Position numbers and translations under genes: made by a program. Source: an uncultured Oscillospiraceae bacterium (lineage in GTDB: Bacteria; Bacillota; Clostridia; Oscillospirales; Oscillospiraceae). From it: a stretch of DNA of 35,704 nt. The notes beneath the pieces are model-generated. The model had not been told where the DNA came from. It did no database searches and saw nothing but the letters and a program-made list of their open reading frames with translations. Below, in pieces: positions 3,158 to 18,062 of the stretch. The stretch is from the NCBI GenBank assembly GCA_947627715.1, contig CANQXK010000025.1, forward strand, positions 1 through 35,704, in the 5' to 3' direction. The stretch's first letter is position 1. Each line of letters opens with the position of its first letter.

Positions 3158-3280
3158 GAGCGGCGGGGAATTTCCGCCCCCCTCCGCCGAAAAACCCGCC
3201 CGCCGGAAACGAGAGTACATTTAACTCTCGTCCCATGCGTGGCGTCCGATAAAGCAATCGTAGATGGCATCCTCATCGAT

Positions 3281-3573
3281 TTTTCAATCCACGCCCTCAA
3301 AGGGGCGGCTTTCTCAAAGTTGGCTTCAAGGTTGATTGCCTGCATATTTCAATCCACGCCCCACCCGGAGGGCGACAAAGACTACACCCGATACCCTTTT
3401 TGCCGGAGTTATTTCAATCCACGCCCCCCCGTGCGGGGGGCGACCCCGGTGTCGGCCAGGTATGTGTGGAATCCGAGATTTCAACCCACGCCCCTAAAGG
3501 GGCGGCTGACCTCCTACAAGGTAACTCCCAAGATAGGGCTATTTCAACCCACGCCCCCCTCGCGGGGGGCGAC
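3281..3573 (-). CRISPR. Type I-C CRISPR array, distal (trailer) block: 5 degenerate repeats
   Basis: There are five repeats, at 3281-3310, 3346-3376, 3411-3444, 3478-3507 and 3541-3573, separated by four spacers of 33-35 nt. The repeats vary in length (30-34 nt) and in the stem-loop, but keep complementary stem arms, for example CCCCTAAAGGGG in the fourth. Three of them end (crRNA sense) GGATTGAAAT and two end GGGTTGAAAT. Degeneration and position farthest from the leader mark this as the oldest part of the array. The block is cut off from the main array by a 681-bp interval carrying a toxin-antitoxin operon. Orientation is minus, as for the cas genes. Confidence 0.9.
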
Positions 3574-3615
3574 GCAGTAATCTGAGGCGACGGGCGGCGA
3601 GATATAGCCGGGAAA

Positions 3616-3897
3616 TCAGCGCGCAAGCTTGTAGACGGCATACTGATTCAGGCTCACGCCGTTCCTTTTCGCGGCTTCAGCCAGGTCCCGATGCAGGTCT
3701 TTCGGGATCCGCAGCATCAGTTTGCCGCTGTATTCCCTCTGAGCGCGGTAATCCTCAAGAGATAACGCCTCGGCGGGATCCTCATCCTCGGCCTGAGCCA
3801 GTGCCGCAAGGTCCTCGGCCGTGGGTTCCTCCGGCTCCCTGGCGTCAATTTGCGCTAAACGTCCGGCAAGCTCCTCGTCTGTCAATTCATGATTCAT
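3616..3897 (-). CDS. HicB-like ribbon-helix-helix antitoxin
   Basis: The protein is 93 residues. The N-terminal 55 are strongly acidic (EEPTAEDLAALAQAEDEDPAE), and the C-terminus is a ribbon-helix-helix domain with GKLMLRIPKDLHRDLAEAAK followed by NGVSLNQYAVYKLAR, the form seen in HicB-family antitoxins. It should bind DNA as a dimer, neutralise the toxin encoded 11 nt upstream and repress the shared promoter. AAGAGGTG precedes the ATG at good spacing. The toxin-first gene order resembles hicAB and higBA. The odd feature is location: the gene sits inside a CRISPR array, its stop codon 42 nt from a repeat. Confidence 0.75.
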   Translation of the reverse strand: MNHELTDEELAGRLAQIDAREPEEPTAEDLAALAQAEDEDPAEALSLEDYRAQREYSGKLMLRIPKDLHRDLAEAAKRNGVSLNQYAVYKLAR

Positions 3898-3908
3898 GGT
3901 CTCACCTC

Positions 3909-4154
3909 TTAATACTTGATATTTGTGCGTGTGTTGATCTCAATGACAGTTATTATCACATCCCCCTTTTCCCATGTGAACAGGATTCGATAATGCGCTA
4001 TCTTGTATCGATAAGCGTTTTTCGTCCCGGCAAGGCGGACGATGTCCCCCTCCCACCGGGAAAGATGGTCAAGGGCTTTATATAGCTTTTGACGGGTATT
4101 GTCATCCACACTGTCAAGATATTTTTGCGCTTGTTTTTTCAATATTATCTGCAC
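3909..4154 (-). CDS. RelE/ParE-family toxin
   Basis: The protein is 81 residues with the compact RelE/ParE fold signature: an N-terminal strand and helices (QIILKKQAQKYLDSVDD), then the basic strand pair YRYKIAHYRILFTWEKGDVIITVIEI. Members are mRNA interferases acting on the ribosome or gyrase poisons; the sequence alone does not say which. I chose the GTG at 4154 because GTGAGGTG lies 6 nt upstream; a longer reading frame to 4298 only translates promoter and CRISPR repeat sequence. The antitoxin follows after 11 nt. The gene is clearly more AT-rich than the cas genes, suggesting separate acquisition. Confidence 0.75.
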   Translation of the reverse strand: MQIILKKQAQKYLDSVDDNTRQKLYKALDHLSRWEGDIVRLAGTKNAYRYKIAHYRILFTWEKGDVIITVIEINTRTNIKY

Positions 4155-4179
4155 GATGTTCACCTCACGCGACAATATT

Positions 4180-4208
4180 ATGATAGTATATGCGCTATCA
4201 TATGTCAA
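4180..4208 (-). promoter_or_regulatory. Promoter and operator of the toxin-antitoxin operon
   Basis: On the minus strand, TTGACA (4203-4208) is followed after 17 nt by TATCAT (4180-4185). A perfect 7-bp inverted repeat, ATGATAG...CTATCAT (4180-4201), covers the -10 box and spacer, as expected for autorepression by the ribbon-helix-helix antitoxin. The promoter lies between CRISPR repeats and points in the direction of array transcription. Confidence 0.7.
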
Positions 4209-4254
4209 GTGAATAATGATAATTTTTTGTGCGCCCCAACTATGGGGAACACCG

Positions 4255-5887
<1,633 letters not shown>

Positions 5888-6059: not shown

Positions 6060-6350
6060 TCACACCAGCAGCACCCCCTCCGGCTCATAGGACGCTTTCA
6101 CGCCGAAGTGCTCAATCTTATTGCGGTACGAATTTCCCAGCTGGTAGAACCGCAGACTGTCTTTTTCCGGGTCGATGACCGCCAGCAGTTCGGTCTGGAG
6201 CAATTTATATTGCGCCGGGTCCAACAGGCACTCAAACACTGAGTTCTGTACCCTCTGGCCGTAGTTGACACACTTCTTGGCCACCCGCCGGAGCCGTTTC
6301 CGTCCGGCGGCGTCCTCCGTGTTCACGTCATAGGTGATCAGCACCAGCAT
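6060..6350 (-). CDS. cas2: CRISPR-associated Cas2 (type I-C)
   Basis: The protein is 96 residues and shows the N-terminal beta strand MLVLITYDVNTEDAAG with the conserved aspartate at residue 8, then RLRRVAKKCVNYGQRVQNSVFEC, characteristic of type I-C Cas2. It forms the Cas1-Cas2 integrase that inserts new spacers at the leader. It is the last cas gene, 9 nt after the cas1 stop and directly upstream of the leader and array, the standard I-C position. Confidence 0.97.
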   Translation of the reverse strand: MLVLITYDVNTEDAAGRKRLRRVAKKCVNYGQRVQNSVFECLLDPAQYKLLQTELLAVIDPEKDSLRFYQLGNSYRNKIEHFGVKASYEPEGVLLV

Positions 6351-6359
6351 GATACCGCC

Positions 6360-7391
6360 TCACTTCCATAAAAAGGGCGGGTAGCCGTCCAAATCTCCCC
6401 GGAGATACCGGGCCAGCAGAAGAGCCTGGACATAGGGGATCAACCCCCACGCCAGCTTCTCTTTCAAATAGGGGTGGGTGATAGGCTCCGCAAGCCGCTT
6501 CTGCCACGCGGTGAGAAAGAGCTTCCGCCCCTCCTCGGTGAGCCAAACCGCGCCGCCGGGCTGCCGCTCAAAATGCTCCGGCCGGATCGCCCGGTTGTTG
6601 ATGAGCGTCAGTACAAAACGGTCGGCGAACAAGGGCCTCAGTTCCTCCATCAGATCCAGCGCCAGCGAGATCCGCCCCGGCCTGTCCCGGTGGAGGAAGC
6701 CCACATAGGCGTCCAGCCCCACGCTCTCCAGCGCCCCGGCGCAGGCATTGGCCAGCAGGGTGTAGGCGAAGGACAGGAGGGCGTTCACCGGGTCCATCGG
6801 CGGGCGGCGGGAGCGGCCGATAAAGGTGAAGGTCTCCCGCTGGTTCAGTATGAGGGCGTCAAAGGCGTCGAAATAGACCGCCGCTGTCTGCCCCTCCATC
6901 CCTCTCAGGGAGTCCGGGTCCGTCTCTTCCAGAAAGGCGGGCAAACTGTCCGCCAGCGCGGCGGAGGCCCGGACAAGCTTTTCCTCGTCTACCCGCATGG
7001 CATGATCCCTGCGGGTGCGCTCAATGCTCCAACGGCTGTTATAGACCTTGCCGAAGAGGAAGCACCGGGCGATCCGGCAGCTCTGAGCCGGGTCGTCGGC
7101 CACGCGGTACTGGGTCCGGCGCAGCAGCACGTTGCCCGGATTTTCCCCGCAGATCCTTGCCAAAAATCTGCCTCTGGGCGTCAGGAAGCATAGATTGACC
7201 CCCTCGCGGGCGCATTTGCCCATGAGGGCGGGGCTGGCCCCCTTGTAGGAAAAGCACAGAATATTCTCCAGGGTGTGAAGAGGAAACTGGCCCCGTTTCT
7301 CCTCCCCGGAGAGCACCTCCACCGTCTCCCCCTCCAGCGCAAGATAGCTGTCCTCGCTGAGGACAAACAGCGTGTTCAGGAATTTTCTCAC
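6360..7391 (-). CDS. cas1: CRISPR-associated Cas1 integrase (type I-C)
   Basis: The protein is 343 residues. The start is a GTG that overlaps the cas4 stop (GTGA), giving VRKFLNTLFVLSEDSYLALEGE; an upstream in-frame extension would only read cas4 sequence. The N-terminal beta domain is followed by the helical catalytic domain with GFLHRDRPGRISLALDLMEELRP, which supplies the active-site histidine (about residue 234) and acidic residue. With Cas2 it integrates prespacers; in type I-C, Cas4 joins the complex to select TTC-flanked prespacers. Translational coupling with cas4 fits that. Confidence 0.97.
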   Translation of the reverse strand: MRKFLNTLFVLSEDSYLALEGETVEVLSGEEKRGQFPLHTLENILCFSYKGASPALMGKCAREGVNLCFLTPRGRFLARICGENPGNVLLRRTQYRVADDPAQSCRIARCFLFGKVYNSRWSIERTRRDHAMRVDEEKLVRASAALADSLPAFLEETDPDSLRGMEGQTAAVYFDAFDALILNQRETFTFIGRSRRPPMDPVNALLSFAYTLLANACAGALESVGLDAYVGFLHRDRPGRISLALDLMEELRPLFADRFVLTLINNRAIRPEHFERQPGGAVWLTEEGRKLFLTAWQKRLAEPITHPYLKEKLAWGLIPYVQALLLARYLRGDLDGYPPFLWK

Positions 7392-8062
7392 GGCATATCC
7401 TCCTCCCCCGGCAGGTGGGCGCGGAGATAGGCGTTGGGCGATTGGATCCTTGTCAGCCTGGGCAAACACAGGTCCTTTAACGAGCAGGCGGCGCACCCTC
7501 TGCCGGACTTTGCTTTGGGGGTATAGCCTCTTTCATAGAGGGCGCGCATCTCGGCAAGCATGGCCTCCACCCGCCCCCGAAGAGCGGCGTCCAACGCCAC
7601 CCTTGTGCGCCGCCGGGGTTCGCCGTAAAAGAGGCTTCCCTCCGGGATGGCGCACAACAGCATCTCCTCCAGACACATGGCCTGAGCGCACAGCTGAAGC
7701 TCGTCTGCCTCAAAGGGCTTCGGCTTGCCCCGCTTGTACTCCACAGGATAGGGCTGCCACGTCCCTTCCTGGCCCGCCAGGGTCACCCCGGCGGGGTCCC
7801 GGTGGAACTCCACCACGTCGCACACTCCCTGGACCTGGAGCCGGTGAGACACGACCCGAAGGCCGCGGACGATCAGGGTATCGCCGCGGCTCTCGGTCTG
7901 CTGTTCATCGTGGGCGCGCCTGTGGAGCAGGTCCCCCTCCACGGTGCGCAGATTCTCCGCCCACTGCCGCTCGATGTGGATGAGGGCCCACTGCCTCCGG
8001 CAGAAGGCGAAGTGCTGAAGGCCGGACAGGGCGAGATACCCCTCCTCCGGCGCGGCCGTCAC
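7388..8062 (-). CDS. cas4: CRISPR-associated Cas4 nuclease (type I-C)
   Basis: The protein is 224 residues, a RecB-like nuclease with an iron-sulfur cluster. The cluster cysteines are C21 (HFAFCRRQW) and C190, C193, C199 in GCAACSLKDLC. VEYKRGKPK near the middle is the PD-(D/E)xK-type motif. Cas4 trims prespacers and sets PAM and orientation for Cas1-Cas2. The GTG start overlaps the cas7 stop by four bases (GTGA), as cas1 in turn overlaps cas4, so translation of the module is coupled. Confidence 0.96.
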   Translation of the reverse strand: MTAAPEEGYLALSGLQHFAFCRRQWALIHIERQWAENLRTVEGDLLHRRAHDEQQTESRGDTLIVRGLRVVSHRLQVQGVCDVVEFHRDPAGVTLAGQEGTWQPYPVEYKRGKPKPFEADELQLCAQAMCLEEMLLCAIPEGSLFYGEPRRRTRVALDAALRGRVEAMLAEMRALYERGYTPKAKSGRGCAACSLKDLCLPRLTRIQSPNAYLRAHLPGEEDMP

Positions 8063-8949
8063 CCCATGCGGGTGCAGGTGACGCCGGCGGGCAGGGCGGC
8101 CTCGTCCACGCAGACGGTGTAGTCGCTGTAGGCGCGGGGGCTGATAACATCCGCGTTCCGGGCCACCTTGACAGTGTCGAAGAGCTTCCAGGCCGGGGCG
8201 CAGCCCAGCTCGGAGTCGTGCTTGAAAACGATCAGCTCCCGGACGGCCATCTTGCCCCGCGCGGCGGAGCGGTCAAACTCGAACATATTCAAAATGGCCT
8301 GCCACAGAAGCTCCAGGTCGTCCTCAGAGAACCCGGTGACCTTCCGGGCCAGATTGGCGGAGACAAATCCCTCGCAGCGGTAGAGGGCGTAAGGGACGAT
8401 GTACTTCCGGCCCATTTCAGTCCCCTTCTTCTCCGCGTCGGCCTCGGTGGTGATGGCCACGCGGGTGATGGTGACCTCCTGAGGCACGATGGGATCGATG
8501 CTGCGGGCAAAGCCCAACTGGACAGGCCCACGGATCTGGCCGCAGTTGAGGTTGTTCTTCACAAAGGTGGTCATGACGGCGCCGAAGGAACGGATGTCAA
8601 AGAAGTTCCGGCACATATAATCCCGAACCCTTTCGTCCAGCTTGTCGTCCTTCTTTTTGGCCTCCTTGACGGTCTTCTCATCCACGCCGCAGTGGTCAAA
8701 TGCCTCGGCGTCGGAGCGGTTCAGAGGCACGCCGTCCTTGATGTAGATGCGAAAGCCCGCATCGCCCTCCCTGGCGGTCTCCACGTAATTGCGGATCTTC
8801 CGCTTCAGGCACACATCGGTGACCAGGCCGTAGCCTGTCTCCGGGTCCAGCCGGGGCATATTGCCCGCGTCGGGGTCGCCGTTGGGGTTGCCGTTCTCCA
8901 CGTCGAACAGGATCACAAATTCATAGCGGTTTTTAATGGGTTCAGTCAT
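8059..8949 (-). CDS. cas7: Cas7 (Csd2), Cascade backbone
   Basis: The protein is 296 residues, a RAMP-fold Cas7 of the Csd2 type. The N-terminus NRYEFVILFDVENGNPNGDPDAGN is diagnostic, with the following DPETGYGLVTDVCLKRKIRNYV. Seven or so copies coat the crRNA spacer in the type I-C surveillance complex. I chose the ATG at 8949 (MTEPIKN) because GGAGAG lies 7 nt upstream; a longer frame to 8979 has no such site. The start overlaps the cas8c end by 8 nt. Confidence 0.97.
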   Translation of the reverse strand: MTEPIKNRYEFVILFDVENGNPNGDPDAGNMPRLDPETGYGLVTDVCLKRKIRNYVETAREGDAGFRIYIKDGVPLNRSDAEAFDHCGVDEKTVKEAKKKDDKLDERVRDYMCRNFFDIRSFGAVMTTFVKNNLNCGQIRGPVQLGFARSIDPIVPQEVTITRVAITTEADAEKKGTEMGRKYIVPYALYRCEGFVSANLARKVTGFSEDDLELLWQAILNMFEFDRSAARGKMAVRELIVFKHDSELGCAPAWKLFDTVKVARNADVISPRAYSDYTVCVDEAALPAGVTCTRMG

Positions 8950-9316
8950 TTTTGCTCTCTCCTTTATCCTTTTTTTCATAGAATTTCTGTACCTGATGAT
9001 AGTAGCCGAGATGGAACGTCCCCTGATCGGCCAGGGAAAGCCTGGCGGGAAGCGTCTCGTGGATGCGGCACTCCAGATCGCCGATCAGCTTCTCATAGTA
9101 GACCCGCAGGCCCGTTTCCAACTTGCGCAGGTGGCTCTGGGACAGCTTTGTCAGCAGGGGGAAAACAACGGCGGGGGTGGCACAGGCGCTGTTGAAATAC
9201 TTGTCCTTGATGGTGGCGTTGATGACGGGGTTGGCGGCCGACTGGACCCGCTCCAGCACGGCGAACAACCGGCCCAGCACGTAGGGGAGATGGGTGCTTT
9301 GTTCATTCAGTTCCAC
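8942..9316 (-). CDS. cas11c: Cas11c small subunit, internal start within cas8c
   Basis: AAGGAGG at 9325-9331 is followed after 8 nt by an in-frame GTG at codon 464 of cas8c, which would give a 124-residue protein beginning MELNEQSTHLPYVLGRLFAV. The product is the helical C-terminal domain of Cas8c. In characterised type I-C systems a small subunit of about this size is made exactly this way and occupies the Cascade belly. A Shine-Dalgarno this strong inside a gene with no downstream gene start nearby is good sequence evidence; expression itself is inferred. Confidence 0.75.
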   Translation of the reverse strand: MELNEQSTHLPYVLGRLFAVLERVQSAANPVINATIKDKYFNSACATPAVVFPLLTKLSQSHLRKLETGLRVYYEKLIGDLECRIHETLPARLSLADQGTFHLGYYHQVQKFYEKKDKGESKND

Positions 9317-10705
9317 TTGTAAGACCTCCTTTGGTATTTGAAACTCTCTGTTTTTCAGGAAAAAAGCTTTCAGAATGGCCGCCCGGCCATAGGTGACCTC
9401 CTTCTCCGCCCGGATGCGCAGCATGGTCTGCTCCAGCAGGGAGACGGGATATGGCCCGTCGGTGAGGATGGCCCGCATGACCGCTCCCGCCATGGGCGGG
9501 GACGCCTTCCTGTCCCGGCTTTTTTGGTTCACGGTCTCGTTCAAAAGCCGCCACAGGGGCAGGGACCCGTTCTGGACGTAAGCGGGCCTGACGATGGACA
9601 GCCTGTCGTAGTGCGCCTGCACGTGCGCCAACATCTGGCCGAAGGTGCTTTGCAGGAAAAACCGCACGCTCAGCCGCGCGGCATTGGGCGAGAGGCCCAG
9701 CACATAGAAGCGGTTTTCAGGGCAAAGCGGGATGCCGTTCACATCCACCGGGTCGCCGCGGGCCAGGTCCCTCACCGCGTCCTGCAGGTCCGTGTCGGTG
9801 ATGACCTCCGGCGCGTCTCCGAACGCGACGCAGGAGAACACGTCCTGGCACAGAGGCTCCGCGTCCTCCGCCCAAAAAACCACGGCGGTGTCCCCAATGT
9901 ACTGGACGTGCCGCCGGTCGGCGATGAGCCGGTTCAGCGCCGCGCCGTATCGGAAGGCGGCCTCCTCGGAGACAGGGGAGTTGAACCCCTGTCCTGTCTC
10001 CTTTCCCTCGTGGCCGTAGGACTCAAAAGCGGCGGCGTTGAAGGACACCAGCGACGCGCCGGAGGGCTGCGCCCCCTGAACGCCCCTGATGGAGGGGTGG
10101 AGCCGGGCAATGGGAGCCTGTCTGCCTGTGACAAGGCAGCGGCCGGACGCCGCCCCGGCGGACTTGGCCTCACGGTAGTCCTGCCACGCGGCCCGAACGG
10201 CGGGGTCGTCCTGAGCGTAAAGCTGGTTGACGGAGAAGATCAGATTCGCGCCATTCAGGATCTCCTCCAGATAGGGACGCAAGACCGGGTGTTCCGCCGC
10301 CTGTTCCGGCTTCCAGACGTCGAAAAAGGCGCACACCGCCCGCGCGGCGGGGCTGTCCGCCGCGCCCAGGATTTTCTGATGCAGTTCCTTTGCCGCCTCG
10401 AAGCATTTCATCGTTCGGTCGGGCTTTCCCTTGTTGTCCACACCGAGAAGATAGGCGCTGTTTTCACACAGGAAGTTGGAATTGATGCCCGACGCCTTTT
10501 TCACCTGCTCCGGCACCTGCAAGGACTGGGGTATCTCCTTTTTGCCCCCCTCCGGCGTCACCTTCAGGGGAATAATACCGTTGAGGACGCCCTGCTCGTC
10601 GATGTCCAGGGCGAAGGACGCCTTCGCCATGCTCCAGCCGGGGGACGTGACCTCTCCCCGCCGGGCAAGGGCGTCGTAGTAGTCGCAAAGCGCCTGCAAA
10701 ATCAT
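8942..10705 (-). CDS. cas8c: Cas8c (Csd1), Cascade large subunit
   Basis: The protein is 587 residues, close to the Csd1 family length, and starts with the typical MILQALCDYYDALARRGE. It is the large subunit that reads the TTC PAM and opens the target. The family regions with FSVNQLYAQDDPAVRAAWQDYR, CLVTGRQAPIARLHPSIRGVQGAQ and FNAAAFESYGHEGKETGQ are all present. It overlaps cas5 by four bases (ATGA) and cas7 by eight. An internal ribosome binding site near the 3' end probably also produces Cas11c from the same frame (see separate entry). Confidence 0.97.
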   Translation of the reverse strand: MILQALCDYYDALARRGEVTSPGWSMAKASFALDIDEQGVLNGIIPLKVTPEGGKKEIPQSLQVPEQVKKASGINSNFLCENSAYLLGVDNKGKPDRTMKCFEAAKELHQKILGAADSPAARAVCAFFDVWKPEQAAEHPVLRPYLEEILNGANLIFSVNQLYAQDDPAVRAAWQDYREAKSAGAASGRCLVTGRQAPIARLHPSIRGVQGAQPSGASLVSFNAAAFESYGHEGKETGQGFNSPVSEEAAFRYGAALNRLIADRRHVQYIGDTAVVFWAEDAEPLCQDVFSCVAFGDAPEVITDTDLQDAVRDLARGDPVDVNGIPLCPENRFYVLGLSPNAARLSVRFFLQSTFGQMLAHVQAHYDRLSIVRPAYVQNGSLPLWRLLNETVNQKSRDRKASPPMAGAVMRAILTDGPYPVSLLEQTMLRIRAEKEVTYGRAAILKAFFLKNREFQIPKEVLQVELNEQSTHLPYVLGRLFAVLERVQSAANPVINATIKDKYFNSACATPAVVFPLLTKLSQSHLRKLETGLRVYYEKLIGDLECRIHETLPARLSLADQGTFHLGYYHQVQKFYEKKDKGESKND

Positions 10706-11355
10706 CGCAGCGCCTCCTTCCCCGCCACCTCCAGCACGCCGTTGGTCAATTCAGCCATGAAAAACACGGGCTGAATGTCCCGGGGGTTGGAGTAGTCCAT
10801 GTCGTAAAGCATCAGCCCCAGAGAACGGCTCTCCGAAATGGCGGGCACCGGCCCGCCGGGCCACGCCCGGAAATGGGCGGGAAACTCCCGGCAGCCGAAG
10901 CAGGGCTGGTGGTAGCACTGGCCCTTTGACAGCCTCCTTCGGGCGATGTCGATGAACTTGCCCTCGCTGTCGCCGGGCGCGGCCTTGTCGGTCATGGTGA
11001 AATGCGCGTCGATCACATACCGCACGTCCGTCAGCACCATGGACGCCCTCTGCTGGATGCTCTCGCCGGTGTAGATGGCCGCCTGTCTGCCCACGCCGGT
11101 CATCTCCCCGCGCACGTTGGAGGCCAGGACCTTGTCCTTGACCTCGTTTCGCCTGATGTTGGTAAAGGCGATGGGGTTCATCACATGGATGCGGTCGATG
11201 TGCCACCGCAGTCCGGGGTGCCAATAGATCGCCTCGATAAGTCCCCTGGCGGCAGAAGGCGTCATCACATCGTAGCTGACCCGTTCCACCTTAAGTTCCG
11301 GACGGGTGAAGAGCGCGTAGTCTCCCCACACCTCCACCTGGATCCCTTGGCTCAT
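10702..11355 (-). CDS. cas5: Cas5c (Cas5d), pre-crRNA processing endoribonuclease
   Basis: The protein is 217 residues, starting MSQGIQVEVWGDYALFTRPELKVERVSYDVMTPSAARGLIEAI, the standard Cas5d N-terminus. Type I-C has no Cas6, and Cas5 itself cuts the repeat RNA at the base of its hairpin and holds the 5' handle. That leaves this protein able to process both the array and the solitary pseudo-repeat at 11652-11681. GAGAGGTGG precedes the ATG. It is the first gene of the cas5-cas8c-cas7-cas4-cas1-cas2 operon, with a 390-bp regulatory region between it and cas3. Confidence 0.97.
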   Translation of the reverse strand: MSQGIQVEVWGDYALFTRPELKVERVSYDVMTPSAARGLIEAIYWHPGLRWHIDRIHVMNPIAFTNIRRNEVKDKVLASNVRGEMTGVGRQAAIYTGESIQQRASMVLTDVRYVIDAHFTMTDKAAPGDSEGKFIDIARRRLSKGQCYHQPCFGCREFPAHFRAWPGGPVPAISESRSLGLMLYDMDYSNPRDIQPVFFMAELTNGVLEVAGKEALR

Positions 11356-11464
11356 AGCCGGTCCACCTCTCTTTCGTGTTTAGAATATTTTTGGTATTTT
11401 CTAAATAGGGGTGGCGTCCGGTTGGTTCGGCCGCCTGTTCTCCTCGCCTCCACCATGACAACAT
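11291..11464 (-). CDS. Possible 57-residue leader peptide overlapping cas5 start
   Basis: A reading frame starts with ATG at 11464, preceded by the purine-rich AGAGGAAAGGAGAG. It begins MLSWWRRGEQAAEP, runs through the cas5 start in another frame and ends inside cas5. The tandem TGG TGG AGG CGA codons right after the start recall the rare-codon starts of CreT toxin mini-ORFs, but this is weak. It may equally be chance. No homology is recognised. Confidence 0.2.
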   Translation of the reverse strand: MLSWWRRGEQAAEPTGRHPYLENTKNILNTKERWTGYEPRDPGGGVGRLRALHPSGT

Positions 11465-11477
11465 CTCTCCTTTCCTC

Positions 11478-11522
11478 TTAAGGTGACAAGTTGAACCGTG
11501 AGTTCGACTCCTGTCACCTTAA
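11478..11522. other. Long hairpin with T-loop-like sequence in cas5 leader
   Basis: A perfect 11-bp outer stem, TTAAGGTGACA (11478-11488) with TGTCACCTTAA (11512-11522), encloses a second stem GTTGAAC/GTTCGAC (11490-11496 and 11502-11508, one G-T pair). The plus strand reads GAGTTCGACTC, like a tRNA T-arm followed by an acceptor strand. It is too short for a tRNA and has no D or anticodon arm. It lies between the predicted cas5 promoter and cas5, so it would form in the cas mRNA leader. Function unknown. Confidence 0.6.
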
Positions 11523-11531
11523 TCTAAGCTT

Positions 11532-11560
11532 ACATTACCACAAACGTCAAACTATGTCAA
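11532..11560 (-). promoter_or_regulatory. Candidate promoter of cas5-cas2 operon
   Basis: On the minus strand a perfect TTGACA (11555-11560) lies 17 nt from TAATGT (11532-11537), a weak -10 box. A second TTGACG (11545-11550) with TTAGAT (11522-11527) offers an overlapping alternative. The pseudo-spacer target (11574-11590) with its TTC PAM (11571-11573) lies just upstream of this -35 box. Confidence 0.45.
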
Positions 11561-11570
11561 CTATTTTTTC

Positions 11571-11590
11571 TTCAAAAGATTTGCAAATGT
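11571..11590 (+). promoter_or_regulatory. Predicted Cascade target site of the solitary guide RNA (TTC PAM plus 17-nt match)
   Basis: TTC at 11571-11573 is the canonical type I-C PAM. The following 17 nt, AAAAGATTTGCAAATGT, match the start of the pseudo-spacer at 11682-11698 at 16 of 17 positions. The single mismatch is at position 6, which is flipped out and unpaired in type I crRNA-target hybrids. Beyond position 17 the match stops, as for repressive guides that bind without triggering Cas3. A plus-strand promoter candidate (TTCAAA at 11571, TATATT at 11595-11600, 18-nt spacer) coincides exactly with the site. Confidence 0.75.
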
Positions 11591-11604
11591 CAATTATATT
11601 TAAA

Positions 11605-11667
11605 AATTCTATTGCAAACGCAGGATGCATGGGATATACTATATATGAAATGTCGCTTATTCTTTAA
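11605..11667 (+). other. Candidate CreT-like mini-gene upstream of the pseudo-repeat
   Basis: If the plus-strand promoter overlapping the target site is real, its transcript would start near 11605 and contain a 12-codon frame (ATG at 11629 to TAA at 11665-11667; MGYTIYEMSLIL) with AGGA just upstream. It runs into the pseudo-repeat, as creT runs into creA in known CreTA modules. The ATA codon would be rare in this GC-rich genome. This is speculative; the frame is very short and the SD spacing poor. Confidence 0.2.
11612..11640 (+). promoter_or_regulatory. Sigma-A promoter of the solitary CRISPR-like RNA
   Basis: TTGCAA (11612-11617) and TATACT (11635-11640) are separated by exactly 17 nt. The predicted start, near 11647, is about five bases before the pseudo-repeat, so the transcript would consist of little more than repeat, pseudo-spacer and a terminal hairpin. 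Confidence 0.7.
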
Positions 11668-11743
11668 GCGTGGGTTGAAATAAAAGTTTTGCAAATGTTG
11701 TACTACGGCCGTGGGGCAGATGCAAGGGCATCTGCCCCACGGC
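11648..11743 (+). ncRNA. CreA/CreR-like solitary crRNA: pseudo-repeat, pseudo-spacer and hairpin
   Basis: The pseudo-repeat (11652-11681, 30 nt) starts GTCGC and ends GCGTGGGTTGAAAT, identical to the array repeat at both ends. Its inner part is replaced by a different but still complementary stem, CGCTTA/TAAGCG. Conservation of the ends and the fold means Cas5c should process it and Cascade should load it. The pseudo-spacer begins at 11682 (AAAAGTTTTGCAAATGT) and runs about 26 nt to a perfect 16-bp hairpin. It lies on the strand opposite to the cas genes, between cas5 and cas3. CreA (antitoxin of CreTA modules) and CreR (cas-repressing RNAs) have this structure: one degenerate repeat, a partly matching spacer and a PAM-flanked target in a nearby promoter. 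Which of the two this is remains open. Confidence 0.8.
11708..11743. terminator. Perfect 16-bp hairpin between convergent cas3 and CreA-like RNA
   Basis: The arms at 11708-11723 and 11728-11743 (GCCGTGGGGCAGATGC and its exact complement) enclose a 4-nt loop. It ends 3 nt before the cas3 stop codon on the plus side and about 26 nt after the pseudo-repeat. Neither strand has a T-tract after it, so it may act as a bidirectional 3'-end stabiliser or an atypical terminator. Confidence 0.6.
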
Positions 11744-11746
11744 TGT

Positions 11747-13909
11747 TCACAGGAAGATTCCCACGCCGGTGTCGGACATGATCGCAAGCCCCGTGCTCTC
11801 GCTGTAAAGGGACGGATCGGTCAGGAGGAACAGGTCCTCCTCCAAAGGCTCCAGGGCGCGCTTATCGTTTAGGGCGTTGAAATAACCCTGGTAAACGTTC
11901 ACCGCATACCTGCCGGCCTTTCGCAGCAGGGTGCGGCTGCGCTCCCCGTTTTGCAGGCGGGCGGCCGCTTCTGCGGCCTCCTTCGTGCGGGGGATGAGCA
12001 CGGCGCGGGTGTTCTCCTCGATGAGGCGAAAGTCTCTGTCCACCTCGGCAAAGGGGAAGGAGGGGCGGCGCGGGTCCTGCATCCCGTTTTCAAACCGGGG
12101 GACGATGCGCTTCCTGTCGATCTCCTCCCCGGTAAACTGCCGCAGGGCGGTGAAATATCGCTCCACGGTCTCCGGCGCGTCCAGCTCCGAACACTCCCGG
12201 ACAACGGCGCGCATGATTTCCAGAGGCCGCTTCATCGCGTGGGGCAGGGTGGCCGTGTAGGCGCTGTCGGGCCGGAAGATGTAGACGCGGCTCTCGTCCG
12301 GGGGGCGCTTCCCCTCCCGGTTGCACCGCCCGGCGGCCTGGACGAGGGAATCAAGGCCCGCCTCGGCCCGGTACACGGCAGGGAAATCCACGTCCACGCC
12401 TGCCTCGATGAGGCTGGTGGACACCACCCGGCAGGGAAGCCCTTCTTTCAGCCGCTCCTTTACGGTCTCCAGCACCGTCTGACGGTGCTCCGGCGTCATC
12501 AGCGTGGATAGGTGAAAGCTGCCCTCTTTGTCCAGAAGGCCGTAGACCGTCTGGGCCTGTTTGCGGGTGGATACGATGCAAAGGACCTGTTCATGGGCAT
12601 TGAGCCGGCGGGCCAGCTCCTCGTCGGAGAGCTGCCCCATATGCTCATAGCGCACCCGCCGAAAGACGCTTGTCGGAACAGCGGGGGCGATCTCCCTGGG
12701 GGCAAGCTCCGGCGAGATGGCGGCAAACATGGGACCCAGGGCGGGCTGAGTGGCGGTGCACAGGACGCAGGACGCGCCGTAATTCACCACCAGCTCCGCA
12801 ATGACCCGCACACAGGGCTGCAGGTAAGGCAGCGGGATGGTCTGGGCCTCATCAAAGATGATAACGCTGTCCGCCAGATTGTGGAGCTTCCGGCACCGGG
12901 AGGGCCTGTTTGCAAAGAGAGATTCAAAAAACTGGACGGCGGTGGTCACCACGACAGGCATATCCCAGTTCTCGGATGCCAGCTTCCTGCGCTCCTTCTC
13001 CGGGTCCCGCGGCCCGCTCTCGTCATCGCCGAAGTCCACATTGGAGTGGTGCTCCAGCACCGCCTCCTCCCCCAGGACCTTGCGGAAGGTGTCCGCCGTC
13101 TGCTCGATGACGCTGGTGTAGGGGATAACGTAAATCACGCGGCTCTTTCCAAATTGCGCGGCGTGGCGCAGGGCGAAGGCCAGGGAGGAAATCGTTTTGC
13201 CCCCGCCGGTGGGCACCGTCAGGGTAAAGAGGCCGGGGGCCTGAGTCTCCCCCGCCTCCAGGCAGGCCCGGAGAATACGGCGGCGGGTACGGTTGAGTTC
13301 AGAATCGGGGGTCTGCCAGCGGGTAATGTAGTTCTCCAGCCGGGCAAGCAGCTCGTCTACGGTGACGTCGCTGCCCCTGGGCGGCGGGCTTCCCCGCATA
13401 AAGGTCTCGGTGTCCAGATAATCCGCGTCCACAAGGCACGAAAACAGCATCCGGGTCCAAAAGGCGGCGCTGAACCCGCCCCGGCCCAGCAGCTTTGGCG
13501 GCCGAAAAGTCACCTTTTCAGGCTTGATCTCCTGAGAAAACTCCCCGTACGGCTCCACAGTCCGCTTGAGCCGCCCGCGGAGCGTGGGGCTGGAGGGGTC
13601 CGCTCCACCGCCCCCTCCGTCCGGCAGACCCCCGTGGTGTCCCGCCACACAGTAGGCCAAAAGGTAGGGCGCGACCTTCACGATCTCCTGCGCCCCCGCG
13701 GTGGAGTGGTCCACCTGGAGGCTGCCGCCTCTGATGCGGCGCTGAAACGCCTGGGAGTATTTCCCTATGTCGTGGAGCAGTCCCGCCAGCTCCGCCGCCT
13801 TCTCCGCGCCAAAGGGCGCGGCAAAACCGGCGGCCAGCTTCGCCACCTCCGACCCGTGCTCCAGCACGCTCTGTTCCCGGCCGTCTGCGGCCAGATGGGC
13901 AAGGGCCAT
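11747..13909 (-). CDS. cas3: Cas3 helicase-nuclease (type I-C)
   Basis: The protein is 720 residues. The N-terminal HD nuclease shows H18, the HD pair at residues 46-47 (LLHDIGKYSQAFQ) and HHGGLPD from residue 91. The helicase part has Walker A VPTGGGKT (about 231-238), DEAQ (about 353) and the later STSLIEAGVDVDFPAVYRAE and QAAGRCNREG motifs. Cas3 is recruited by target-bound Cascade and degrades DNA. AAGGAGG lies 7 nt before the ATG. It is transcribed separately from the other cas genes, which lie beyond the guide-RNA gap; so Cascade can be regulated, or act as a repressor, independently of Cas3. Confidence 0.97.
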   Translation of the reverse strand: MALAHLAADGREQSVLEHGSEVAKLAAGFAAPFGAEKAAELAGLLHDIGKYSQAFQRRIRGGSLQVDHSTAGAQEIVKVAPYLLAYCVAGHHGGLPDGGGGGADPSSPTLRGRLKRTVEPYGEFSQEIKPEKVTFRPPKLLGRGGFSAAFWTRMLFSCLVDADYLDTETFMRGSPPPRGSDVTVDELLARLENYITRWQTPDSELNRTRRRILRACLEAGETQAPGLFTLTVPTGGGKTISSLAFALRHAAQFGKSRVIYVIPYTSVIEQTADTFRKVLGEEAVLEHHSNVDFGDDESGPRDPEKERRKLASENWDMPVVVTTAVQFFESLFANRPSRCRKLHNLADSVIIFDEAQTIPLPYLQPCVRVIAELVVNYGASCVLCTATQPALGPMFAAISPELAPREIAPAVPTSVFRRVRYEHMGQLSDEELARRLNAHEQVLCIVSTRKQAQTVYGLLDKEGSFHLSTLMTPEHRQTVLETVKERLKEGLPCRVVSTSLIEAGVDVDFPAVYRAEAGLDSLVQAAGRCNREGKRPPDESRVYIFRPDSAYTATLPHAMKRPLEIMRAVVRECSELDAPETVERYFTALRQFTGEEIDRKRIVPRFENGMQDPRRPSFPFAEVDRDFRLIEENTRAVLIPRTKEAAEAAARLQNGERSRTLLRKAGRYAVNVYQGYFNALNDKRALEPLEEDLFLLTDPSLYSESTGLAIMSDTGVGIFL

Positions 13910-16190: not shown

Positions 16191-18062
16191 TCAGCCGGCC
16201 GCGCCGCCGCCCTCTGTGGGGTCACCCATTTCGCCGTCGTCCTCCTCCTGGGTCTGCCCCTCGCCGGGGTTCCCGGTCTCGCCGCCGGGATTCTCAGTCT
16301 CTCCACCGGGATTCGTAGTCTCCCCGCCGGGAGTCGTGGTCTCCCCGCCGGGGTCCGTGGTCTCCCCGCCGGGGTTCGTAGTCTCCCCGCCGGGGTCCGT
16401 GGTCTCCCCGCCGGGATTTGTGGTCTCTCCGCCGGGATCCGTGGTCTCCCCGCCGGGGTCCGTGGTCTCCCCGCCCACCGGGGTGGAGGCCTCCGGCCCG
16501 ACGCGCACCACCTTATCCATGGCCCTGTAGGTGTCGTGGGAGATGAGCGTCCGGCTCAGGAGGTTCCCGTTGCCGTCGTAAATGAGCTTGTACGCCTCGG
16601 ACACCAGCCCGTACTGGCCGTTCTCGTCCACCACGCGCTCGCCGGGGGCCAGGGTCTCGTCGATCTTCTCCACCACCTTCGGGGAGATGGTGCTCAGGGT
16701 CTTGGACTCCAGCTGGACCGTGTAGTCGTTCTCCTTTGTGCCCCAGATCTCCACGTAGAGGCGCTTATTCTCCACCCACGCCACCAGCTTGATGGGGAAA
16801 TTCCTGTTGTTTTCAAACTTGAAGTCCAGATTCGGCCAGTTGACGGTGGCATCCAGGCTGGCGGGGAGGTACGCCACGGTGTAGCCGTGATTCTGCCGCT
16901 CCACGATCTTCAGGTCGGCCTTCAGGGTGCAGAAGTAGAGGGTTGAGCTGAGCTGGCAGATGCCGCCGCCCACCTCGCTGACGTGTCCGCCGCCGGCGTA
17001 GGCCCCGGCGGGCTTGTAGCCCTTGGCCTCCGTGCGCTGGCCGATGGTCCCGTTATAGCTGAACCTGTCGCCGGGGTTGAGCACCGTGCCGTTGATGGCC
17101 GCGGCGGCCAGGGTGATGTTGGTGATGCGGTTCGCGGAGCTTGTGGCCAGGGTGGTGTCCTTCTCGGCGAGCTTGTCCTTGAAGAGAAGGTCGTTCACCT
17201 CGCCCGACCCGTTCTCCGGCTCGGTGAAGATGAGAGGCACCCGGATGGTCTCGCCGTTTCCGGCGGCGTCCAGAAGGGCCTGCGCGGCCGCCACGTCGAA
17301 GCTGATGCCCGTGACCGCCGCCCGCACCTCGCCGCTCTCCGCGTCGAAGTAGGCGTCCTGAGGCTCTGTGTACACCTCGTTGTAAATGGCCTCAAGGTCC
17401 GGCTTTTCCACGGTCCCGCCGGTGGACCTGGCCTCGGAGAAGGCGTCCGTGCTCCGGGAGGTCCCGGAGGCCAGCGTCTCCTTGATGAACTGGAAGACCG
17501 CCTCCTCGTCCACCGTATACCCGGAAGACCCCACGGTGATGAAAAGCTCCGTCTGGGAGACCTCGTAGGAGGGTTCCTTCGCCCCGTGGTTCACAAGGCG
17601 CGCCGCCTGGGCGATCTTCGCCCGGACGCCGTCCTCGTTGAGATTCTGGAGGGCATAGACCTCGTGCCCGTGGGAAAGGCAGCTGACGAACGTGCCGAGA
17701 TTTTTGAAGAAGCCGTCCTCCCGCCCATAGGCGTAGGCCATATCCACCGCCTCCGTGATGGGGACGGTCAGGCCCGCCTCGTCGCTGGTGACGGTGACGC
17801 TCTGGGTGCCGGTGAGGACAGCCGTGGCCTGAATGCCCGTGGGCACGCCCACGGAGGCGCCCAGGAGCGTGCTCCTGGCCTCGTCATAGGTCATGCCGCC
17901 CACGTCCACTCCGGCCACCGTCACATGGGGGAACACCGTGTCCCGGCTGGCCACATACGCCCCGCCCCCCAGGATGATCCCGGCGATGACCACCACCAGG
18001 ATGGCAACCGAGGCCAAAATCACAATGCCCGTGTCGTTCTTTCTCTTTCTTTGCTGTGCCAT
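16191..18062 (-). CDS. VanW-family membrane-anchored cell-wall protein with GGETTxP repeat tail
   Basis: The protein is 623 residues. A basic N-terminus is followed by one membrane segment (about 12-38). Residues 45-250 resemble peptidoglycan-binding type 4 domains (VTVAGVDVGGMTYDEA). A VanW domain covers about 300-440, with NRITNITLAAAAINGTVLNPGDRFSYN and GGHVSEVGGGICQLSSTLY. A G5-like segment follows at about 445-520, then ten 7-residue GGETTxP repeats (530-599) and an acidic end. It should be anchored in the membrane and act outside the cell in contact with peptidoglycan. The family's biochemical role is not firmly known. AGAGGATAAG precedes the ATG, and it has its own promoter and terminator. 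Confidence 0.9.
   Translation of the reverse strand: MAQQRKRKNDTGIVILASVAILVVVIAGIILGGGAYVASRDTVFPHVTVAGVDVGGMTYDEARSTLLGASVGVPTGIQATAVLTGTQSVTVTSDEAGLTVPITEAVDMAYAYGREDGFFKNLGTFVSCLSHGHEVYALQNLNEDGVRAKIAQAARLVNHGAKEPSYEVSQTELFITVGSSGYTVDEEAVFQFIKETLASGTSRSTDAFSEARSTGGTVEKPDLEAIYNEVYTEPQDAYFDAESGEVRAAVTGISFDVAAAQALLDAAGNGETIRVPLIFTEPENGSGEVNDLLFKDKLAEKDTTLATSSANRITNITLAAAAINGTVLNPGDRFSYNGTIGQRTEAKGYKPAGAYAGGGHVSEVGGGICQLSSTLYFCTLKADLKIVERQNHGYTVAYLPASLDATVNWPNLDFKFENNRNFPIKLVAWVENKRLYVEIWGTKENDYTVQLESKTLSTISPKVVEKIDETLAPGERVVDENGQYGLVSEAYKLIYDGNGNLLSRTLISHDTYRAMDKVVRVGPEASTPVGGETTDPGGETTDPGGETTNPGGETTDPGGETTNPGGETTDPGGETTTPGGETTNPGGETENPGGETGNPGEGQTQEEDDGEMGDPTEGGGAAG
16266..16475 (-). repeat. 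Ten 21-bp tandem repeats coding GGETTxP
   Basis: The units encode GGETTDP, GGETTNP, GGETTTP, GGETENP and GGETGNP variants in tandem. Units are near identical at DNA level, so copy number is likely to vary between strains by slippage without shifting the frame. The product is a flexible, proline- and glutamate-rich spacer. Confidence 0.9.

Follow-up and report, generated by a model that had tools for sequence, protein, structure and literature searches.

In the window analyzed here, a 35,704-nt stretch of DNA from an uncultured Oscillospiraceae bacterium, the gap between cas3 and cas5c of a type I-C CRISPR-Cas locus carries a solitary, degenerate CRISPR repeat followed by a 17-nt guide that matches a TTC-flanked site beside the predicted cas5 promoter. 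The element probably encodes a CreR-type RNA which, once processed by Cas5c, would guide Cascade in cleavage-free repression of the operon that encodes it. This reading draws on features established at the level of sequence, namely the anatomy of the element, its conservation, the locus-by-locus matching of guide and target, a six-base period in their mismatches and the nearness of the sites to predicted promoters.

The Putative Guide-RNA Element and Its Locus

On the minus strand of the window, the order is cas3 (11747–13909), upstream of the guide gene, a 391-bp gap, cas5c (10702–11355; TIGR01876), at the head of the operon presumed to be regulated, cas8c, cas7, cas4, cas1c, and cas2 (6060–10705), and then a CRISPR array (3277–5887, interrupted at 3577–4256) that is the source of the parent repeat and of potentially competing crRNAs. 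Genes were assigned with NCBIfam models, and cas5c, cas8c, and cas7 are of I-C type (TIGR01876, TIGR01863, TIGR02589, TIGR03640); cas6 was absent among the nine proteins scanned at the locus. The interruption of the array is a two-gene, toxin-antitoxin-like cassette on the minus strand that encodes a ParE-like protein (PF05016, 22.1 bits, below the cut-off of 23) and a HicB-family protein (PF05534, 57.3 bits), neither of which gave anything above the cut-offs against NCBIfam. Elsewhere in the window, a tandem array with a 21-bp period (16238–16510) lies within the gene for a VanW/G5-domain protein (16191–18062, minus strand).

The putative guide gene lies in the cas3-cas5 gap, antisense to the cas genes. 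Its predicted promoter, TTGCAA (11612–11617) and TATACT (11635–11640) separated by 17 nt on the plus strand, ends 11 nt before the pseudo-repeat GTCGCTTATTCTTTAAGCGTGGGTTGAAAT (11652–11681, plus strand), a single copy of a degenerate type I-C repeat with a 6-bp stem (CGCTTA/TAAGCG) and a 5-nt loop; the stem of the array repeat has 7 bp and its loop is likewise 5 nt. The final 11 nt, UGGGUUGAAAU (11671–11681), are identical to the 3′ end of the array repeat and are predicted to form the 5′ handle of the processed RNA, which we take to be the product of Cas5c cleavage at the place known from I-C processing. The guide, AAAAGTTTTGCAAATGT (11682–11698, plus strand), is identical at 16/17 positions to the target AAAAGATTTGCAAATGT (11574–11590, plus strand), which is preceded by the PAM TTC (11571–11573) on the same strand. 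The preliminary description of this DNA had proposed the pseudo-repeat, the guide, and its TTC-flanked near-copy, together with the stem and the promoter-like hexamers 11 nt upstream of the repeat, and each is present where it had been placed. Beyond the guide, a 16-bp hairpin (11708–11743) may be the common end of the RNA on the plus strand and of cas3 on the minus strand. Because this hairpin has no U-tract on the plus strand and no terminator-like site occurs in 11356–11780, the 3′ end of the RNA is less certain in the window than in several relatives.

The cas5 promoter, TTGACA (11560–11555) and TAATGT (11537–11532) separated by 17 nt on the minus strand, was predicted with a promoter score of our own and has a TG one base before the -10 hexamer; it is missing from a consensus scan, its weak -10, TAATGT, matching the consensus at 3/6 positions. 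The target site does not overlap this promoter, from whose -35 it is separated by 13 bp, PAM included, and it is situated between two divergent predicted promoters, 21 bp before the -35 of the RNA itself. As in CreR systems, the guide can pair in part with a PAM-flanked site at a predicted cas promoter, and the pseudo-repeat is a degenerate copy of the cognate array repeat that lies outside the array and beside the cas genes. The cas5 leader contains a 34-codon ORF, MVEARRTGGRTNRTPPLFRKYQKYSKHEREVDRL (11352–11456, minus strand), whose stop codon overlaps the cas5c start codon and which is possibly a leader peptide or a translational coupler; a similar ORF is present in L027, L030, and L031, and 4 of the 14 loci with long leaders that were checked have such an ORF behind the predicted promoter. 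The leader also holds, at 11480–11520, a 9-bp inverted repeat (AAGGTGACA/TGTCACCTT) that is single copy in the genome. Similar inverted-repeat ends in the leader of L027 enclose a stretch about 230 bp longer, the two resembling a small mobile element (L027) and its remnant (window).

With at most one mismatch, GCGTGGGTTGAAAT has 28 copies in the 2.64-Mb genome, 27 of them in the array and one at the pseudo-repeat. When 11356–11650 was subjected to 20,000 dinucleotide shuffles and both strands were searched, no site with fewer than two mismatches to the guide arose; two mismatches were reached in 2 shuffles, three in 58, and four in 524. The window was also screened, ignoring guide positions 6 and 12, for TTN-flanked matches to the sequences following its 56 handle-like sites (up to two mismatches, both strands), and only the 11652–11681 unit had a match with at most 2/15 mismatches anywhere in the window (0/15, with two other handle-like sites having 3). 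A regulon beyond cas5 was considered and rejected, the genome having no other site with up to one mismatch to TTY plus the guide (positions 6 and 12 free); at two mismatches, three places in the genome are found in addition to the guide gene itself. Array spacers were likewise rejected as further regulators, none having a match with up to 2/15 mismatches in the window. An Rfam search of the gap returned two matches far below gathering scores (best E 0.23), and a search with one exact guide pattern found no viral contigs with this guide.

Conservation and Guide-Target Matching in Related Loci

Loci with a related Cas5c were taken from named genome records, the best 80 of 136 found being used; among these 80, the closest relatives belonged to uncultured Oscillospiraceae and Clostridia with isolates named Lapin, presumably from rabbit gut. 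Their cas3-cas5 gaps range from 0 to 625 bp, and the 51 gaps that reach 90 bp (50 loci and the window) were analyzed, with L010–L013 omitted as repeats of L026–L028 and L035; L047, L084, and L097 have no cas3 match (contig ends). In 35/51 gaps there is a pseudo-repeat on the antisense strand that departs from one of four repeat-end variants at no more than one position. When guides were searched against their own gaps with no position favored and no PAM required, 31/36 found a match with up to 4/17 mismatches, compared with 37/1258 swapped and 50/1800 shuffled guides; the PAMs of the 31 were TTC (21), TTT (8), and TTA (2). The preliminary description had looked for repeat ends and a TTC-flanked match to be kept in the gaps of related loci. 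This was borne out for 32/51 gaps, in which a pseudo-repeat is combined with a TTN-flanked match (1/510 shuffles), and not for the other 19/51, which lack the combination. In regions upstream of cas3, a match was found in 6/71 against 1/710 shuffles, and the short-gap loci L060, L074, and L076 have the element there instead; matches of L038 and L039 in this region were discounted because they overlap themselves. Four close relatives with short gaps (L022, L023, L034, and L035) have no element, and 24 of the 78 loci examined have neither a 90-bp gap nor a match in the 500 bp upstream of cas3.

A joint test was applied to 141 whole loci, comprising the best 80 relatives, the window, and 60 regions (59 of 62 places among 391 class genomes, plus one other). 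The test excluded array repeats and demanded a handle with at most two mismatches and, within 400 bp, a match with at most 2/15 mismatches (positions 6 and 12 ignored) and TT before the last PAM base; 53/141 loci passed, vs 0/141 shuffled loci. Five matches were dropped by eye: that of L038, which overlaps itself, and those of L136, L153, L177, and L182, which are far from a cas promoter, the first three of these four also having repeat-like guides. Retained in spite of weaknesses were L162 and L167 (poor stems) and, in the held-out set, L249 (weak match). The 48 loci kept, 13 of them from the class regions, have the element in the cas3-cas5 gap (40) or upstream of cas3 (8), and the downstream gene is cas5c or cas3. 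The predicted RNA is antisense to cas in 46/48, the site is on the cas-sense strand in 9/48, and the PAMs are TTC (37), TTT (9), and TTA (2). A held-out set that played no part in setting the joint test was drawn from 80 of 90 places among 299 phylum genomes (85 with a match), some regions being shortened by contig ends. Here 5/80 regions passed the joint test and five passed when no position was ignored (up to 4/17 mismatches), vs 0/240 shuffles in each case.

With a prevalence of 32/51 in gaps near the lineage, 13/60 in class regions, and 5/80 in phylum regions, the element is common near this lineage, rare elsewhere, and not universal. Eight plasmid I-C loci, out of 54 matching records, were tested and none had it; these came from Nitratidesulfovibrio, Parabacteroides, Treponema, Thermus, Lysinibacillus, Paenibacillus, Streptomyces, and a Geminicoccaceae bacterium. 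Outside the Clostridia, the I-C locus of Enteroscipio rubneri (L055) has a sense-strand pseudo-repeat upstream of cas3 and a TTC-flanked match on the opposite strand with 2/15 mismatches.

The sole mismatch between guide and target in the window is at position 6. The preliminary description had regarded this as an unpaired position, a view that proved correct and general across the relatives, and position 12 behaves alike. In the 31 own-gap matches, position 6 is mismatched in 23/31 and position 12 in 26/31, with 0–5 mismatches at every other position; the 23 dissimilar guides of this set give 16, 20, and 0–4. Across the 48 loci the figures are 34/48, 38/48, and 0–7 for the others of positions 1–17, a profile that inside 1–17 is partly present by construction because the joint test ignored positions 6 and 12 and limited the rest; it is unchanged in outline among the 35 dissimilar guides. 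Positions 18–34 have 30–42 mismatches each, and matching stops at 17 in most loci, few guides (notably those of L024 and L026) matching further. The tests free of position choice are the own-gap search and the held-out check; in the latter, with no position ignored, mismatches fell at position 6 in 5/5, position 12 in 4/5, position 10 in 3/5, and the others in 0–2. Under a strict setting of the held-out check, eleven pairs of positions six apart were ignored in turn, and only (6,12) gave matches (3 loci). In class 1 complexes, every sixth guide base is described as flipped out (PMC11127173; PMC5904413).

As with CreR RNAs, the matching of guide and site is maintained in related loci. Guide positions 1 and 5 differ between the window and L027, and both changes also appear in the target. 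In eight hand-picked related pairs, two of which have no difference at paired positions, 20 differences at the fifteen paired positions appear in guide and target alike (mirrored) and 7 do not, compared with 0 and 11 at positions 6 and 12. For 19 machine-picked pairs of mixed kinship, the corresponding counts were 78 and 22 at paired positions and 1 and 25 at positions 6 and 12. Mirroring is partly expected since the presence of a match was itself the reason for including each locus; the independent control for co-change is provided by the swapped guides (37/1258).

Thirteen loci selected only by the place of GTC have standard stem pairs in 52/52 cases, three of the four pairs varying on both sides, while slid-partner controls gave 8–35 of 52, or 11–14 of 39. 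Judged from these base pairs, the pseudo-repeat stem is maintained by double changes. In 39/48 loci, vs 33% of shuffles, a stem of 4 bp or more runs up to the handle; in the remaining 9/48 it is shorter than 4 bp or absent, six having none. Relatives have a hairpin 3′ of the guide, often with a T-run, which by our own scoring (run with no shuffle control) starts near guide position 17 in L139, L150, and L154 and at a median of 25.5 over the 48 loci. GTCGC or GTTGC is retained at the hairpin in 5/48 loci and is possibly the relic of a second repeat. When gaps were searched with no array filter, 34/35 loci had one repeat unit; a second handle (up to two mismatches) within 110 nt occurred in 0/48, a prior filter having removed units 50–90 nt apart. 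The exception is L026, in which, unlike the single-unit majority of relatives, two units are spaced 67 nt apart. Its first guide has a best match with 7 mismatches and its second a TTC-flanked gap match with 3/17, an arrangement suggestive of a spacer that entered the guide gene by insertion or recombination. In type I-C Cascade, Cas5c processes the crRNA and holds its 5′ handle, there is no Cas6, and the crRNA is described as having no 3′ stem-loop (PMC7684278); on these grounds a second repeat may be dispensable, and the single-repeat form would suit I-C.

Placement of the site relative to the predicted cas promoter was judged with the same simple score in 42/48 loci, the others being two with the RNA on the other strand and four with no cas5 match. 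The site precedes the predicted -35 in 21/42 (20 with an edge 4–19 nt away, one at 170), begins in 18/42 within an interval reaching from 12 nt upstream to 34 nt downstream of the predicted start, and overlaps the promoter in 3/42. A zone bounded 20 bp ahead of the predicted -35 and 10 bp beyond the predicted start contains the site in 36/42, vs 17.7 by random placement. The window belongs to the class with the site before the -35.

Predicted Mode of Action and Alternative Explanations

We infer transcription, processing, binding, repression, and feedback as follows. A small RNA would be transcribed from about 11647 on the plus strand, antisense to the cas genes, and would consist, in order, of one degenerate I-C repeat, the 17-nt guide, and a terminal hairpin. 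Cas5c would trim it to the 11-nt handle, and the RNA would be loaded into the Cas5c-Cas7-Cas8c Cascade. Pairing is expected as three blocks of five (1–5, 7–11, and 13–17), with bases 6 and 12 flipped out, such that Cascade would be parked next to the cas5 promoter, on the TTC-flanked site, and the cas5-8-7-4-1-2 genes would be held down by occlusion. The site would be occluded and left uncut because pairing that ends at 17 would be insufficient to recruit Cas3. Repression would relax once array crRNAs or an inhibitor draw Cascade off, and CreR repression is described as being eased in this way (review PMC12737573). Short pairing is reported to permit Cascade binding, interference in type I-E needing more than 18 bp (PMC5904413); in type I-B, interference is lost at 30 and priming at 24, and a 24-nt spacer still represses (PMC10989794). 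TTC and TTT serve as PAMs in a functional I-C repression system (PMC10865793). Pairing in the elements described here involves up to 15 bases in a span of 17, and since six PAM-distal mismatches sharply reduce promoter repression in I-E (cited in PMC5904413), 17-nt pairing may repress weakly or partially.

It is conceivable, if unlikely, that the guide mainly represses its own promoter as a form of guide-level homeostasis, the effect on cas5 being incidental or both promoters being repressed together. The window site, between divergent promoters and close to the -35 of the RNA, would allow this, as would the 20 loci with a site 4–19 nt before the cas -35, where the RNA -35 is mostly 22–55 nt from the cas-side edge; however, in the 18 loci with a site at or past the cas start the RNA -35 is mostly 51–141 nt away, and where the leading cas promoter is upstream of cas3 the element is found there too. 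A Cascade-dependent toxin guard akin to CreTA is very unlikely. The candidate toxin would be the 34-codon leader ORF, which has AGG AGA after codon 4; such an ORF follows the predicted promoter in 4 of the 14 loci checked, all with leaders of at least 110 nt, yet the other 10 have no ORF of 34–36 codons (L036 has a shorter likeness), and the overlap of its stop with the cas5 start is consistent with translational coupling.

A decaying array remnant with an old self-targeting spacer, although compatible with the degenerate repeat and with the paired units of L026, is highly improbable given that guides differ between loci yet match their own sites, that mismatches concentrate at positions 6 and 12, and that the stem has undergone double changes. 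Direct repeats near promoters often mark operators, and the 17-bp near-repeats might in principle be two operator copies for a protein repressor beside a coincidental pseudo-repeat. That explanation is scarcely credible when a repeat handle precedes one copy and a TTN PAM precedes the other, the mismatches fall at 6 and 12, the site is on the cas-sense strand in 9/48 loci, and the 17-mer varies between loci (35 dissimilar).

Relation to Known Systems

CreR RNAs have been reported for types I-B, I-E, and V-A (review PMC13131331). The window element is like them in being a putative crRNA-like RNA with a partial match to a cas promoter and, as predicted here, autorepression; it differs in that CreR is described as a mini-CRISPR (review PMC12948488), whereas this is a type I-C element of one repeat and a hairpin, and in that its system has Cas5c where CreR has Cas6. 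A degenerate repeat, a partial guide, a TTC PAM, and (here predicted) repression by Cascade are shared with CreA of CreTA (PMC9458426), but CreA controls a toxin RNA and mostly has two repeats, and its type case has an 11-bp seed match (PMC10989794) compared with 15 paired positions in three blocks here. Racr RNA anti-CRISPRs also have a solitary repeat unit after a promoter; these, however, are viral, lie apart from cas genes, and bind Cas proteins into an aberrant subcomplex (PMC10651486), whereas the window element is in a cas locus and has a matching guide.

No type I-C single-repeat cas regulator was encountered in the literature searched, the main survey of crRNA-like elements lying outside that search. 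Stand-alone repeats with promoter-matching spacers were reportedly found in many type I loci by Shmakov et al. in 2023; those elements are said to be often mini-arrays of two repeats and may include I-C cases, and there is a fair chance that some members of the present set are already listed in print. Another natural single guide, the tracr-L of Streptococcus Cas9 reportedly described by Workman in 2021, is said to autorepress the CRISPR operon through a short match; it differs in using Cas9 and a tracrRNA, an effector unrelated to Cascade. A tentative proposal, about which we are rather doubtful, is that the elements constitute a distinct natural single-guide class of type I-C, with one repeat, a 17-nt guide, and a terminator-like hairpin cap, possibly forming a short bind-only Cascade (about three to four Cas7) and dedicated to autorepression in Clostridia.

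If the CreR-type reading is true, RNA-guided CRISPR self-control extends to type I-C and to gut Clostridia in a minimal design for which one repeat is sufficient, and repression with native, Cas3-retaining I-C systems could draw on the elements as ready-made short guides. The record of guides and targets over dozens of lineages would be a natural read-out of the bases that Cascade pairs in vivo, the matching pairs providing evolutionary evidence for the six-base pairing rule and for the amount of pairing that gives binding without cutting. Carriers with culture-type names include Faecalibacterium sp. I4-1-79 (L075), Pseudoflavonifractor gallinarum (L083), and Yanshouia hominis (L039), and the idea is therefore testable.
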